Notes under the pieces: model-generated | What the model was told of the DNA's origin: nothing | The model's database searches: none | The model's input: only the letters and a program-made list of their open reading frames with translations | Position numbers and translations under genes: made by a program | Shown: positions 48,584 through 55,115 of the stretch, piece after piece | Layout: each line of letters begins with the position of its first letter | How positions within the stretch are numbered: position 1 is the first letter of the stretch | Source: Rhodocyclaceae bacterium | GTDB taxonomy: Bacteria; Pseudomonadota; Gammaproteobacteria; Burkholderiales; Rhodocyclaceae | Assembly (NCBI GenBank): GCA_023383815.1 | Contig: JAHDYG010000001.1 | Span: forward strand, 248,001-312,000 | Direction: 5' to 3' | Length of the DNA: 64,000 bases

Positions 48584-48868
48584 ATGCCTATCTACGAATA
48601 TCGGTGCAGTACCTGCGGATTCCAGAAGGAACATATCCAGAAGATGAGCGCGGCTCCGCTCACGACCTGCCCGTCCTGCAGTGCGGAGTCCTATTCAAAG
48701 CTGCTCTCGGCCGCCGGATTTCAACTCAAGGGATCAGGCTGGTACGCGACCGACTTCAAGGACAAGGGCTCATCAAGATCTTCGGGCAAGACCACCGACA
48801 CATCCCCCGAAGCCAGTCCGGGCCAGGGCGGCGGCTGCGGCGGCGGATGCGCCTGCCATTCGGCCTGA
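48584..48868 (+). CDS. FmdB family zinc-ribbon protein
   Basis: [32 protein letters not shown]; Gly/Cys-rich tail. Confidence 0.93.
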
Positions 48869-48929
48869 TCCGCCCCATCGTCATTCATCAAGCGGCCTTG
48901 CGCCGTATTTCAGCACCGGAAGCGAACTC

Positions 48930-50732
48930 ATGCGAACCCATTACTGTGGCGTGGTTTCAGACGCCGATCTGGACAAGACTGTCAGCCTGTGCGGCTGGGT
49001 TCACCGTCGGCGCGACCATGGCGGCGTGATCTTCATCGATCTGCGGGATCGCGAAGGCCTCGTGCAGGTCGTGTGCGACCCGGACCGGCCGGAGATGTTC
49101 CGAACTGCCGAGTCGGTTCGCAACGAGTTCGTAATCCGGATTTCCGGCCGTGTGAGGCGGCGGCCGTCCGGCACGGAAAACCCAAACCTGATCTCCGGAC
49201 AGGTCGAGGTCCTGTGCCTGGACATCGAAGTCCTTAACCCGTCGGCCACACCGCCGTTCCAGCTCGACGAGGACAACCTGTCCGAGAACGTTCGTCTGAC
49301 CCATCGGGTCATCGACCTGCGTCGCCCGCAGATGCAGAAGAATCTCCGGCTTCGCTACCGCGTCGCAATGGCCTTTCGCCGCTTTCTCGACAGCCAGGGT
49401 TTCATCGACATTGAAACACCGATGCTGACGAAGAGCACCCCTGAGGGTGCGCGCGACTATCTGGTTCCCTCGCGCGTGCATCCAGGACAGTTCTTCGCGC
49501 TTCCACAATCTCCTCAGCTCTTCAAGCAGCTGCTGATGGTTGCCGGATTCGACCGCTACTATCAGATCACGAAGTGCTTCCGCGACGAAGATCTGCGCGC
49601 GGACCGTCAGCCCGAGTTCACCCAGATCGATCTCGAGACCTCGTTTCTGAACGAAGGTGAGATCACTGCCCTGGTCGAGGAGATGGTTCGTTCCGTCTTC
49701 CGCGAGTCCATCCAGACGGAACTTCCTGAACCGTTTCCGCGCATGAGCTACGCCGAAGCCATGCGCCGGTATGGTTCGGACAAACCGGACCTGCGCGTCA
49801 CGATCGAACTGACCGAGGTCACGGACCTCGTACAGGATGTGGCGTTCAAGGTATTCAGCGGGCCAGCGACCAGCGGCGGCAGGGTTGCGGCAATGCGAAT
49901 CCCTGGCGGCGCCAGCCTCACTCGAGGCGAAATCGACGACTACACCCGCTTCGTTGGGATCTACGGAGCGAAAGGCCTCGCCTACATCAAGGTCAACGAT
50001 CGTGACCAGCCCAATGAGAGCGGCTTGCAGTCGCCGATCGTCAAGAATCTTCATGAACAGGCCTTGCGTGCAATCCTCGAGCGGACCGGTGCCGAGAACG
50101 GCGACCTGATCTTCTTCGGTGCGGACAAGGCCAAGGTGGTCAATGACGCCCTCGGCGCCCTGCGCGTGAAGATCGGTCACGAGAAGGGCTATCTTACGGG
50201 CGCGCCCTGGGCACCCGTGTGGATCATGGACTTCCCGATGTTCGAGTACGACGAGGAAGACAAGCGCTGGACCGCCTGCCACCATCCGTTTACCTCACCG
50301 AAAGACGAGCACATCGACCTGCTCGAATCCGATCCGGGCGCCTGCCTTGCCAAAGCCTACGACCTGGCACTCAATGGCTGGGAAATTGGCGGGGGATCGG
50401 TCCGGATCCATCGCGCAGACATGCAGAGCAAGGTTTTCAGGGCGCTGAACATCGGCGAGGAAGAAGCGCGTACGAAGTTTGGCTTCCTGCTCGACGCATT
50501 GCAGTATGGAGCACCTCCGCACGGAGGACTCGCGTTTGGTCTGGATCGTATCGTGACCCTGATGACAGGCGCCGAATCGATCCGCGACGTCATTGCGTTC
50601 CCGAAGACTCAGCGCGCCCAGTGCCTTCTGACCGATGCGCCGGGTGAAGTCGACGAAAGGCAGCTTCGCGAACTGCATATCCGGCTGCGCCAGAAAGTCG
50701 AAACCAAGGTAGAGGTCGAGCGGAGCAACTGA
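48930..50732 (+). CDS. aspS: Aspartate--tRNA(Asp/Asn) ligase
   Basis: [43 protein letters not shown]; class II motifs [29 protein letters not shown]. Confidence 0.97.
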
Positions 50733-50892: not shown

Positions 50893-52575
50893 ATGCCCGA
50901 CCTGCAAGACATCGACGTACTGGTCATTGAAGCACATCCGGCCATGCGCGCGCAGCTGCGCTCGATGCTCAATGGAATCCGGGTCACGCGAGTGACGTTC
51001 GTCGCCTCGGCGCTCTCGGCCGTCGAGAAACTGCAGACTCGACAGTTTGATCTCATCCTCTGCGAGTACGCGCTCGGTCCCGGGCAGGACGGGCAGCACC
51101 TGCTCGAGGACCTGCGCACGAGACGGATCATCCCGCTCGACACGGTGTTCATCATGATCTCGGGCGAGCGCAACTACGAGCGCGTGATCGGGGCGGCCGA
51201 ACTTGCACCGAACGACTACATTCTCAAGCCCCTCACGCCCGGTACGCTGCACGAACGGATCGAACGTGCGATGCACAAACGCGATACGCTGCAACCCGTT
51301 TATCGCCTGATCGAATCTGGAGCATATCGCGAGGCAATCGAGTACTGCGAGCGCGGACAGGACGAGTTACCGCGCTATCGAACCGACTTCATGCGCCTGC
51401 GCGCCGAATTGCTCGGCGAACGCGGCCTTCATGCCAAGGCCGAGGATGCGTATCGCGAGATTCTCAGGACCCGCCACGCTCCCTGGGCGAGGCTCGGGCT
51501 TGCCAAGATGCTGTTCGCCCGCAAACAGTACGAAGATGCCGAGATGATCCTGGAAAGCCTGGTCGCCGAAAGCCGGGATTACCTGGACGCGTACGACTGG
51601 CTTGCGAAAACCCGCGAGGCGGCGGGGCGACTGCGCGAAGCGCAGGACATCCTGCTGACCGCGGTCGAGCGTTCGCCTCATCGTCTCGGTCGACTGCGCC
51701 ATCTGGGTGAAGTTGCGCAGGCCAGCGGCGATCACGCGACGGCAGAGCGCGCGTTTTCCGAAGTCGTACGCAAGGGCAAGCAGTCTGCCTTCCGCGACCC
51801 CGAAGATCACGTCCGCCTGATCAAGGCACAGCTTGAGCAGGGACACACGGCCGACGCGGCCGAAAGCCTTCGCGATCTCGAGCAATCGATGTCCGACCAG
51901 CCAGCGGGCGCCGTATGCAGCGCGTACGCCCATGCACTGCTCTGCGCAGCGAGTGGTGATCGCAAGGGGGCACGGGAAGCAATGCTGCTCGCCGCGCGCA
52001 GGCGCAGCCTGGAGGCTGACCTCTCATTGCCGCTTCAGCGCGAGATGGCCGAGACCTGTCTGGACAACCTGCTCGAAGACGAGGGCAGCGAACTGATCAC
52101 GGATCTGCTGCGACGGGCGACCGATGCGACGATGGTCGATTCCGTCCGTGAAAGCTTGCGCGCACGCGGACGCGAAGACCTCTCGATCCGCATCGAAGAG
52201 CGCCTCCACAACGAGGTCAAGGCCTACATCGCATCCGGGGCCGCGAAGGCCCATGCTGGCGACTATGATGGCGCCGTACGCGAGATGATGCAGGCCGTCC
52301 GGAAGATGCCGGGCAATCCGCACGTCACGTTCAACGCCGCCCTGGCCCTTCTTCGCCATATCGAGGAAAACGGCTGGAACGAGCGCTTTGCGACCCGCGC
52401 ACGGATGCTGATCGAACGCTACCGCATGCTCGATCCGCTGAACTCGAGGCTGGATGCGATCAATGGCCTGCTTCAGAGCCTGATGCAGCGCTATGGCATC
52501 GACCCCACCGCAATTGCAGCCACTGCAGCCTCGCGCCCGGCGTCCAGACAGATCCTTGACGGCCTGCCCGAATAG
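50893..52575 (+). CDS. TPR-containing protein with N-terminal (pseudo)receiver domain
   Basis: CheY-like fold VLVIEAHPAMRAQL...FDLILCEYALGPGQDGQHLLEDLR...YILKPLTP; tandem TPR helices thereafter. Confidence 0.88.
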   Translation: MPDLQDIDVLVIEAHPAMRAQLRSMLNGIRVTRVTFVASALSAVEKLQTRQFDLILCEYALGPGQDGQHLLEDLRTRRIIPLDTVFIMISGERNYERVIGAAELAPNDYILKPLTPGTLHERIERAMHKRDTLQPVYRLIESGAYREAIEYCERGQDELPRYRTDFMRLRAELLGERGLHAKAEDAYREILRTRHAPWARLGLAKMLFARKQYEDAEMILESLVAESRDYLDAYDWLAKTREAAGRLREAQDILLTAVERSPHRLGRLRHLGEVAQASGDHATAERAFSEVVRKGKQSAFRDPEDHVRLIKAQLEQGHTADAAESLRDLEQSMSDQPAGAVCSAYAHALLCAASGDRKGAREAMLLAARRRSLEADLSLPLQREMAETCLDNLLEDEGSELITDLLRRATDATMVDSVRESLRARGREDLSIRIEERLHNEVKAYIASGAAKAHAGDYDGAVREMMQAVRKMPGNPHVTFNAALALLRHIEENGWNERFATRARMLIERYRMLDPLNSRLDAINGLLQSLMQRYGIDPTAIAATAASRPASRQILDGLPE

Positions 52576-52578
52576 CCC

Positions 52579-52995
52579 ATGAAGCCGCACCGTACCGGCT
52601 GGCTCGCCCCGCTGTGCTTCGCCGCCGCGCTCCTGTGCGGCGACGTGTGGGCAGAGCAAGCGCAGCAGCACATCCCCGAGAACCCCTCGCACATCGTGCT
52701 GGCCGAGCGCGAGGCGACATCCGGACTGTCCGTCCCCCCGGAAGCCCTTGAAACACTGCAACTCATCAAGCGCGGCGGCCCCTTCCCCTACCGGAAGGAC
52801 GGCAGCGTGTTCCACAACCGCGAACGCCTGCTTCCGATCCGTCCAAACGCGTATTACCGCGAGTACACCGTCCGGACCCCGGGAGCACAGAACCGCGGCG
52901 CCCGACGATTGGTAGTCGGTGGCAGACCTCCGGAAGTGTTCTACTACACGGGCGATCACTACCGCAGTTTCACGCTGCTCGAAGGCTCCCCATGA
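52579..52995 (+). CDS. Secreted guanyl-specific ribonuclease (RNase Sa / barnase / N1-T1 superfamily)
   Basis: Signal peptide ending DVWA; PPEALETLQLIKRGGPFPYRKDGSVFHNRERLLP...YYREYTVRTPGAQNRGARRLV...YYTGDHYRSF resembles RNase Sa with the catalytic E, R and H present. Confidence 0.93.
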   Translation: MKPHRTGWLAPLCFAAALLCGDVWAEQAQQHIPENPSHIVLAEREATSGLSVPPEALETLQLIKRGGPFPYRKDGSVFHNRERLLPIRPNAYYREYTVRTPGAQNRGARRLVVGGRPPEVFYYTGDHYRSFTLLEGSP

Positions 52996-53420
52996 GGATG
53001 GACTCCGATCTGGCGGCGTGGCTGAAAACCATCGAGCGGTGTGGCCTGTACCGCGCTCCGGAGCAGATCATGCTGCGGCTTTCGGACGCGGCTCGCACGG
53101 CCGGCCTGAAATACTACGCCGTGGAGCTCACCGGCTGCCCGGACAAGCGCTCAGTACTTGCAGCGCTCGCCCGGGATCTGCAGCTCCCGGAATGGTTCGG
53201 GTTCAACTGGGACGCTCTCGAAGAGGTGCTCGCCGACCTCGAACCCTGCGTCATCGTCCTTCACGGCCTCGAAGACCTTGGCCGGAAGAGTCCGTGCGAC
53301 CTCGCACTCGCTCTCGATCTGTTCCGTTCGGTCGTCGACGAACAGCGGCAGTCCGGCCGTTCGATGTGGGTCTTCGTCGGGATGCAGGCCGACCCCTCGA
53401 TTCCCGCCTGCTCCGAATGA
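52992..53420 (+). CDS. Barstar-family RNase inhibitor
   Basis: LTGCPDKRSVLAALARDLQLPEWFGFNWDALEEVLADL barstar fold signature; ATGA overlap with RNase gene. Confidence 0.93.
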   Translation: MRMDSDLAAWLKTIERCGLYRAPEQIMLRLSDAARTAGLKYYAVELTGCPDKRSVLAALARDLQLPEWFGFNWDALEEVLADLEPCVIVLHGLEDLGRKSPCDLALALDLFRSVVDEQRQSGRSMWVFVGMQADPSIPACSE

Positions 53421-53854
53421 ACGCGCAGATGGCGTTCAAGCGACCGGAATCGGTCCTGGTTGTCGTCCACACCGTCGACAGGCAGGTACTGCTGCTTGAA
53501 CGGGTCCACCCACCCGGTTTCTGGCAGTCCGTCACCGGGAGCCTGGAGCCCGGGGAAACACCACTGGATGCTGCCTTGCGCGAACTCGAAGAGGAAACCG
53601 GTTTGCACGCGTGCCCTCCGGAACTTCGCGACTGGCAGCGCAGCAACCGGTTCGAGATCCGGCCCGAGTGGCGTGGACGCTACGAGCCCGACGTCACCCA
53701 CAACATCGAGCATGTGTTCAGCCTGTGCCTGCCGACCACGCAGGCCGTCCGCCTAGCCCCAGCCGAGCACCTCGATCACGCCTGGCTGCCACGCGAAGAG
53801 GCTGCTCGGCGCGTGTTCTCGTGGACCAACCGGGCCGCAATCCTCGATCTCTGA
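53417..53854 (+). CDS. nudB: Dihydroneopterin triphosphate diphosphatase
   Basis: Nudix box GSLEPGETPLDAALRELEEETGL; NudB-like N/C termini; ATGA overlap with barstar gene. Confidence 0.9.
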   Translation: MNAQMAFKRPESVLVVVHTVDRQVLLLERVHPPGFWQSVTGSLEPGETPLDAALRELEEETGLHACPPELRDWQRSNRFEIRPEWRGRYEPDVTHNIEHVFSLCLPTTQAVRLAPAEHLDHAWLPREEAARRVFSWTNRAAILDL

Positions 53855-53879: not shown

Positions 53880-55115
53880 TCAGCCCCCCGCCCACATCGC
53901 ATCCAGATCGGCGAAGTTCCACTTCTCGCGCGGCTCCACGGCGATGATGCGATCCTTGCAGCTTCGATGCGCCAGATCGATCGTCTCCGTCGGAATCCTG
54001 CTTCCAGAGCGCAGGGCATAAAAGGCCTTCACGCGCGGTGCGAGCGACGCACCTGCGTTCTGTTCCGTAACGACTGCAATCCGCTCCGAGGCGAGACGCA
54101 CGAGGCTGCCCACCGGATAGATGCCCACGCATTTCACGAAGGCATGGAACACGGCGCGATCGAGGTGCCCACGCGTCCACTCCTCCATCCGACGCAAGGA
54201 CATCGAGGGATCCCATCCTGACTTGTAGGGGCGGTTGGACGTGATCGCATCATAGATATCGCACACCGCCCCCATGCGGGCAAACAGACTCAGCGTGTTT
54301 CCGTCCAGCGCGTCCGGGTACCCGGTGCCGTCGAGCTTCTCGTGGTGATGCAGGCAGACATCCACGGTCACCGGGTCGCAGTCCGATGCACGACGGACGA
54401 TCTCGGCACCGGCACGCGGGTGACGCCGGATGACCGCGAACTCGGCGTCGGTCAGCTTGCCCGGCTTGTTGAGAATCTCCAGCGGCACCATGGCCTTGCC
54501 CATGTCGTGCAACAGTCCGGCCACGCCCGCCTGCCGGACGGCAGGCTCATCAAAGCGGAGTTCCCGCGCAAGGGCAACCATCAACGAACACACCGACACC
54601 GAGTGCAGGTACGTGTATTCATCCGCCGTTTTCAGCCGGGCGAGGCTGATCAGCGAAGTGGCATTGCGAGCGATCGAGGCCGTGATGCTCTCGACCAGGT
54701 CATGGACCGCGTCCATCTCGACCACGCGTCCCAGGCGGGACTCCTGGAACATCGACTCCACCACGGCCTTGCCCGCCTTCAGGACGCGTCGGGCGCGCGC
54801 GCATTCCTCGGCGAACCCGGCCTGCCCGGACTCCCGCACCTCCACCCCGCGCAATGCGGCCGGTGCCTGATCTGCCTCGGCCACATTGGTATCCGCAACC
54901 GCGTCCTCGTCGGCAAGCGACCCCGCCACGTCGAGTCCGCGATCCGTGTCGATCAACAGCTCGCGGATCGCACTGACCCGGATCGCCGCAAGATCGACCG
55001 GATCATCAAGCGCGAAACGGCTTCGCCAGAAGGGATGCTCGAGCCATGACCCGCAGAACTCATGAATGAACATGCCGATCCGAACGTCGGCCACGACAAT
55101 ACGCTTGATCATCAA
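53880..55115 (-). CDS. HD-GYP domain c-di-GMP phosphodiesterase (with DUF3391-type N-terminus)
   Basis: GLLHDMGKAMVPLEILNKPGKL ... HHEKLDGTGYP. Confidence 0.9.
   Translation of the reverse strand: MMIKRIVVADVRIGMFIHEFCGSWLEHPFWRSRFALDDPVDLAAIRVSAIRELLIDTDRGLDVAGSLADEDAVADTNVAEADQAPAALRGVEVRESGQAGFAEECARARRVLKAGKAVVESMFQESRLGRVVEMDAVHDLVESITASIARNATSLISLARLKTADEYTYLHSVSVCSLMVALARELRFDEPAVRQAGVAGLLHDMGKAMVPLEILNKPGKLTDAEFAVIRRHPRAGAEIVRRASDCDPVTVDVCLHHHEKLDGTGYPDALDGNTLSLFARMGAVCDIYDAITSNRPYKSGWDPSMSLRRMEEWTRGHLDRAVFHAFVKCVGIYPVGSLVRLASERIAVVTEQNAGASLAPRVKAFYALRSGSRIPTETIDLAHRSCKDRIIAVEPREKWNFADLDAMWAGG

Follow-up and report, generated by a model that had tools for sequence, protein, structure and literature searches.

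The window, the 64,000-nucleotide stretch of Rhodocyclaceae DNA analysed here, encodes a predicted guanyl-specific ribonuclease of the RNase Sa type, a member of the RNase Sa/barnase superfamily, and the gene of a barstar-family inhibitor lies directly 3' of it (Table 1). The best reading, to which we give a probability of about 0.85, is that of an exported RNase with a coupled cytoplasmic barstar for self-protection. A Sec-type signal peptide would direct the RNase out of the cytoplasm. The overlapping next gene, which is probably translationally coupled, would yield an acidic barstar that is kept in the cytoplasm. The barstar would plug the active site of any RNase molecule that reaches its fold ahead of export or comes back into the cell. 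That the barstar binds the RNase, that the enzyme is active and exported, and what it does once outside are predictions from the sequences. A secreted RNase with a barstar inhibitor had been proposed in an earlier sequence-only reading, and the comparisons with relatives point to the same arrangement.

Table 1. The RNase–barstar pair and its neighbouring genes in the window
Feature	Position	Strand	Length	Assignment
aspS, aspartyl-tRNA synthetase	48930..50732	+		upstream host gene; neighbours 66-89% identical in relatives
Receiver-TPR protein gene	50893..52575	+		receiver and TPR domains (Pfam)
RNase Sa-type ribonuclease, predicted guanyl-specific, N-terminal putative signal peptide	52579..52995	+	138 aa	PF00545; RNase Sa match
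Barstar-family inhibitor	52992..53420	+	142 aa	PF01337 and fold model; pI about 4.7
nudB, dihydroneopterin triphosphate diphosphatase	53417..53854	+	145 aa	NF006961 equivalog, 195 bits (NCBIfam)

The RNase and its inhibitor

The RNase matches PF00545 with 77.9 bits (curated Pfam cut-off 24, E 9e-22). The nearest solved structure is that of RNase Sa (1uci), with an E value of 9e-28 and a colinear alignment over residues 51-135, whereas barnase is a marginal match among the solved structures (E about 0.04-0.08). Thus, the label 'RNase Sa type' is correct. This assignment had been made from the letters of the sequence together with the catalytic Glu (YREYTV), Arg (GARRL) and His (GDHYRSF), and the PF00545 and 1uci matches agree with it. 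The second Arg of GARRL corresponds to the catalytic Arg69 of RNase Sa, and the enzyme carries the equivalents of Glu54, Arg65, Arg69 and His85. The active-site Glu, Arg and His are invariant in an alignment with 62 relatives. Among 192 distinct RNase rows drawn from all fetched loci, the Glu54/Arg65/Arg69/His85 set is complete in 188. The four exceptions are the copy G119:C33, the two halves of a frameshifted gene in G209, and one sequence with Pro at the position of Arg65.

A signal-like hydrophobic N-terminal stretch is present in 70 of 74 RNases, including that of the window, according to a hydropathy test rather than a trained signal-peptide predictor. In the two other frames of the same genes, such a stretch occurs in 8/74 and 2/74 cases, which supports the putative signal peptide noticed in the sequence-only reading. 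Cleavage is likely after VWA at residue 25, leaving a mature chain of 113 aa with a pI of about 9.5. None of the 74 barstar N-terminal extensions has a signal-like hydrophobic stretch.

The barstar matches PF01337 with 68.8 bits (cut-off 23.4, E 4e-19). Against the classical barstar as the sole comparison, phmmer gave a weak match (E about 0.4). The AlphaFold2 model has a pLDDT of 92.9, and the top 20 Foldseek matches of the model are all barstar, with TM of about 0.8 on the target. In the model, an ordered helix–strand–helix extension (residues 2-36) precedes the barstar domain. In the RNase-binding motif, the equivalents of Asn33 and Asp35 are kept, the latter as Asp74. The position of Asp39 is occupied by Glu78, so that the DxxxD inhibitor motif reads DALEE. 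Glu is found at this position in 13 paired copies in all, and the window barstar is among the more diverged copies.

Within the order, the median length of barstars with an RNase Sa-like partner is 144 residues (n=69) versus 90 residues with a barnase-like partner (n=5); single lengths are approximate because start codons were set by rule. The inhibitor had been described as longer than the classical barstar. The difference is real (142 versus about 90 aa), but the length is not unusual; it is typical for partners of RNase Sa-type enzymes. The folded N-terminal extension of barstars with an RNase Sa-type partner, together with the conserved coupling to aspS and nudB, might have an extra role, such as holding the RNase precursor unfolded, handing it to the export machinery, or tying RNase output to translation capacity. 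We consider such a role improbable.

The window's genome contains one PF00545 match and one PF01337 match. NCBIfam has no model for the RNase or for the barstar, and neither protein was matched by PADLOC.

Gene order around the pair

The RNase and barstar genes overlap by 4 nt (ATGA), as do the barstar and nudB genes (ATGA), and the RNase start lies 3 nt after the stop of the receiver-TPR gene. These spacings had been noticed from the sequence; the coordinates match, and the arrangement is not due to chance. Promoter and terminator scans around the operon gave nothing above shuffled sequences.

AspS, RNase, barstar and NudB are all encoded within the fetched stretch at 26 loci of the order, including the window. 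In these loci, fmdB usually precedes aspS, and so does a DUF502 gene where this was checked. A check of neighbourhood conservation had been suggested earlier. Of 30 loci in the window's family, 29 have nudB directly 3' of the pair; aspS is directly 5' in 20 of the 30 and the receiver-TPR gene in 8. The aspS–RNase–barstar–nudB order is ancestral and is conserved in many families of the order. nudB is a host operon gene outside the RNase–barstar module, and the receiver-TPR gene is a lineage-specific insertion between aspS and the RNase gene. The linkage of the pair to the receiver-TPR protein and nudB, formerly called unexplained, is thus largely explained by this conserved order and the insertion. 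The receiver-TPR gene was considered as a part of the module and ruled out, as it outlasts the loss of the pair and most loci with the pair lack it.

The distances of RNase, barstar, AspS and NudB correlate with each other (r 0.46-0.70). This correlation is consistent with mostly vertical descent of the pair. The mean identity is 64% for the RNase, 61% for NudB and 35% for the barstar.

Two further features of the surroundings were observed. In relatives, a DUF502 (PF04367) gene is located between fmdB and aspS (e.g. L088:4456-5088). It is missing at 48868-48930 of the window and also in G234, a genome of the same genus; the sole DUF502 relative elsewhere in the window's genome is 22% identical (G000:C51). 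An HD-GYP (DUF3391) gene at window positions 53880-55115 is convergent with nudB, and the same layout is found in G234.

Pairing, loss and decay in relatives

A survey of 200 genomes from the order yielded 77 RNase loci, spread over 76 genomes, and the barstar gene lies directly 3' on the same strand at 75 of these loci. A barstar is encoded somewhere in the genome in 76/76 RNase-bearing genomes, versus 31/124 of the others (Fisher p 3e-30, an indicative value which ignores kinship). In the window's family, the RNase is present in 34 of 41 genomes, every one with a barstar; one further genome has the barstar alone, and none has the RNase alone. The PF00545 survey missed several barnase-like RNases. 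According to the A1 profile, a barnase-like RNase is encoded just upstream of 7 of the 19 fetched 'orphan' barstars, so that the orphan-barstar counts of the survey are too high.

One of the two unpaired RNases is G119:C33 (L137:6778-7248), a copy of the RNase Sa type without an adjacent barstar. It is probably catalytically dead because the catalytic Glu is replaced by Ala and the His by Tyr. An AraC/GyrI-like regulator is encoded just 5' of this copy, and the G119 genome also has an intact RNase–barstar pair. The second unpaired RNase, in G053, is barnase-like and keeps its catalytic residues, and barstars are encoded elsewhere in the genome. An RNase Sa-type enzyme with an intact active site and no adjacent inhibitor was not seen in the survey of the order.

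Several stages of loss were found. In G209:C1 (L290:6380-7080), the RNase gene is broken by a single frameshift and the overlapping barstar gene is intact. A barstar without an RNase lies between aspS and nudB in G144 and G219, and directly after aspS in G143. In these three barstars the RNase-contact motif is altered (GGDWDALDE, GAHLDDLAE and SADWSAFAG). In G234, the site reads aspS–TPR–nudB and is clean, without RNase and barstar. The motif equivalent to Gly31/Asn33/Asp35/Asp39 is complete in 179/183 paired versus 4/14 unpaired barstars, a comparison which ignores kinship and in which a few of the 14 may belong to other subfamilies. In addition, a barstar without an adjacent RNase and with an altered contact motif is encoded at L226 and L227 (G031 and G076, small genomes of 1.7-1.9 Mb).

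The decay is one-way: the inhibitor often survives RNase loss, and then its contact motif drifts, whereas the survey has no RNase Sa-type enzyme that keeps its active site and stands without an adjacent inhibitor. This is the pattern expected of an enzyme that endangers its maker. The co-occurrence of the two genes and the erosion of the motif lend indirect support to the predicted binding and inhibition of the RNase by its barstar.

Alternative readings, known systems and meaning

Outside the cytoplasm, the exported enzyme would most likely degrade RNA rather than kill rivals. Scavenging is favoured by the fixed operon position, the vertical descent, the lack of delivery domains, and the conservation of the RNase, which is close to that of NudB. 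Antagonism keeps some weight because of the patchy loss and the faster-diverging barstar; this divergence would also fit an arms race. In an antibacterial toxin–immunity system, the RNase would be released to harm neighbours, and the barstar would shield the producer and its kin. Such a role is compatible with the core mechanism, and we regard it as possible but unlikely. The gene order fits such systems, simple barnase–barstar pairs have been viewed as an incipient toxin–immunity order (PMC3482391), the pair is present in only 34 of the 41 family genomes, and the barstar retained in RNase-less genomes could serve as immunity. However, polymorphic toxins are fused to delivery or repeat regions, and the 138-aa RNase has neither; it consists only of the RNase domain behind a signal-like N-terminus. 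The single conserved operon site, the distances tracking those of AspS and NudB, and the absence of RNase polymorphism also argue against this role. The erosion of the contact motif in RNase-less barstars is unexpected if these still guard against the RNases of neighbours.

An intracellular toxin–antitoxin or growth-control system, in which the RNase turns on cellular RNA once the barstar level drops, would agree with the tight coupling of the genes and with the presence of the inhibitor wherever the RNase occurs. It is highly improbable, since nearly all related RNases have a signal-like N-terminus, the toxin gene comes first, the inhibitor has no DNA-binding domain, and PADLOC recognizes neither protein. 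The growth-control module suggested in the sequence-only reading is therefore not supported for an RNase with a putative export signal. A joint function of the pair with the receiver-TPR protein and nudB, under control of the receiver and tied to folate metabolism, is very improbable. The very tight spacing (3, -4 and -4 nt) would fit it, and an orthologue of the receiver-TPR gene adjoins the pair in Aromatoleum, Zoogloea and Niveibacterium. In most relatives, however, no TPR gene accompanies the pair; Xanthomonas, Stenotrophomonas and Acidovorax, among others, carry the pair in other contexts, away from aspS and nudB; and G234 keeps the TPR gene and nudB after loss of the pair.

An RNase predicted to be exported, together with its barstar inhibitor, belongs to a well-known kind of gene pair. 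The RNase has the Glu/Arg/Arg/His set and the small size of RNase Sa of Streptomyces aureofaciens (PDB 1ay7/1uci; PF00545), and it would be exported like that enzyme. Unlike RNase Sa, it has an inhibitor gene directly 3'; no barstar match was found within about 8 kb in the Streptomyces, Kribbella and Kibdelosporangium RNase loci examined. With barnase–barstar of Bacillus amyloliquefaciens, the pair shares an RNase predicted to be exported and an acidic inhibitor that would stay in the cytoplasm and has the same fold, with the Asp35 equivalent kept. The RNase is, however, nearer to RNase Sa than to barnase, and the inhibitor differs from the Bacillus barstar in a folded extension of almost 40 residues at its N-terminus and in Glu at the Asp39 position. 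Simple barnase–barstar pairs are widely distributed, beta- and gammaproteobacteria included (Zhang et al., 2012; PMC3482391). The systems and the Imm-Barstar family described there have the same two families, the RNase-first order and the DxxxD motif; the window pair lacks polymorphic-toxin delivery domains, and its fixed aspS–nudB site is an added detail. The search, which was confined to the open-access literature, found no proteobacterial RNase Sa-type/barstar pair that had been studied experimentally. The aspS–nudB site, the length gap between the inhibitor classes and the decay series were likewise not found in the literature searched.

According to these results, RNase Sa–barstar pairs are an operon feature passed on mostly by vertical descent in many betaproteobacterial families. 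The frameshifted RNase, the RNase loss, the dead RNase without an inhibitor and the clean loss of both genes are natural 'experiments', and they support the view that in Gram-negative bacteria the RNase depends on its inhibitor. The physiological role of these exported RNases has been little studied, and it becomes testable in the culturable Aromatoleum and Zoogloea.
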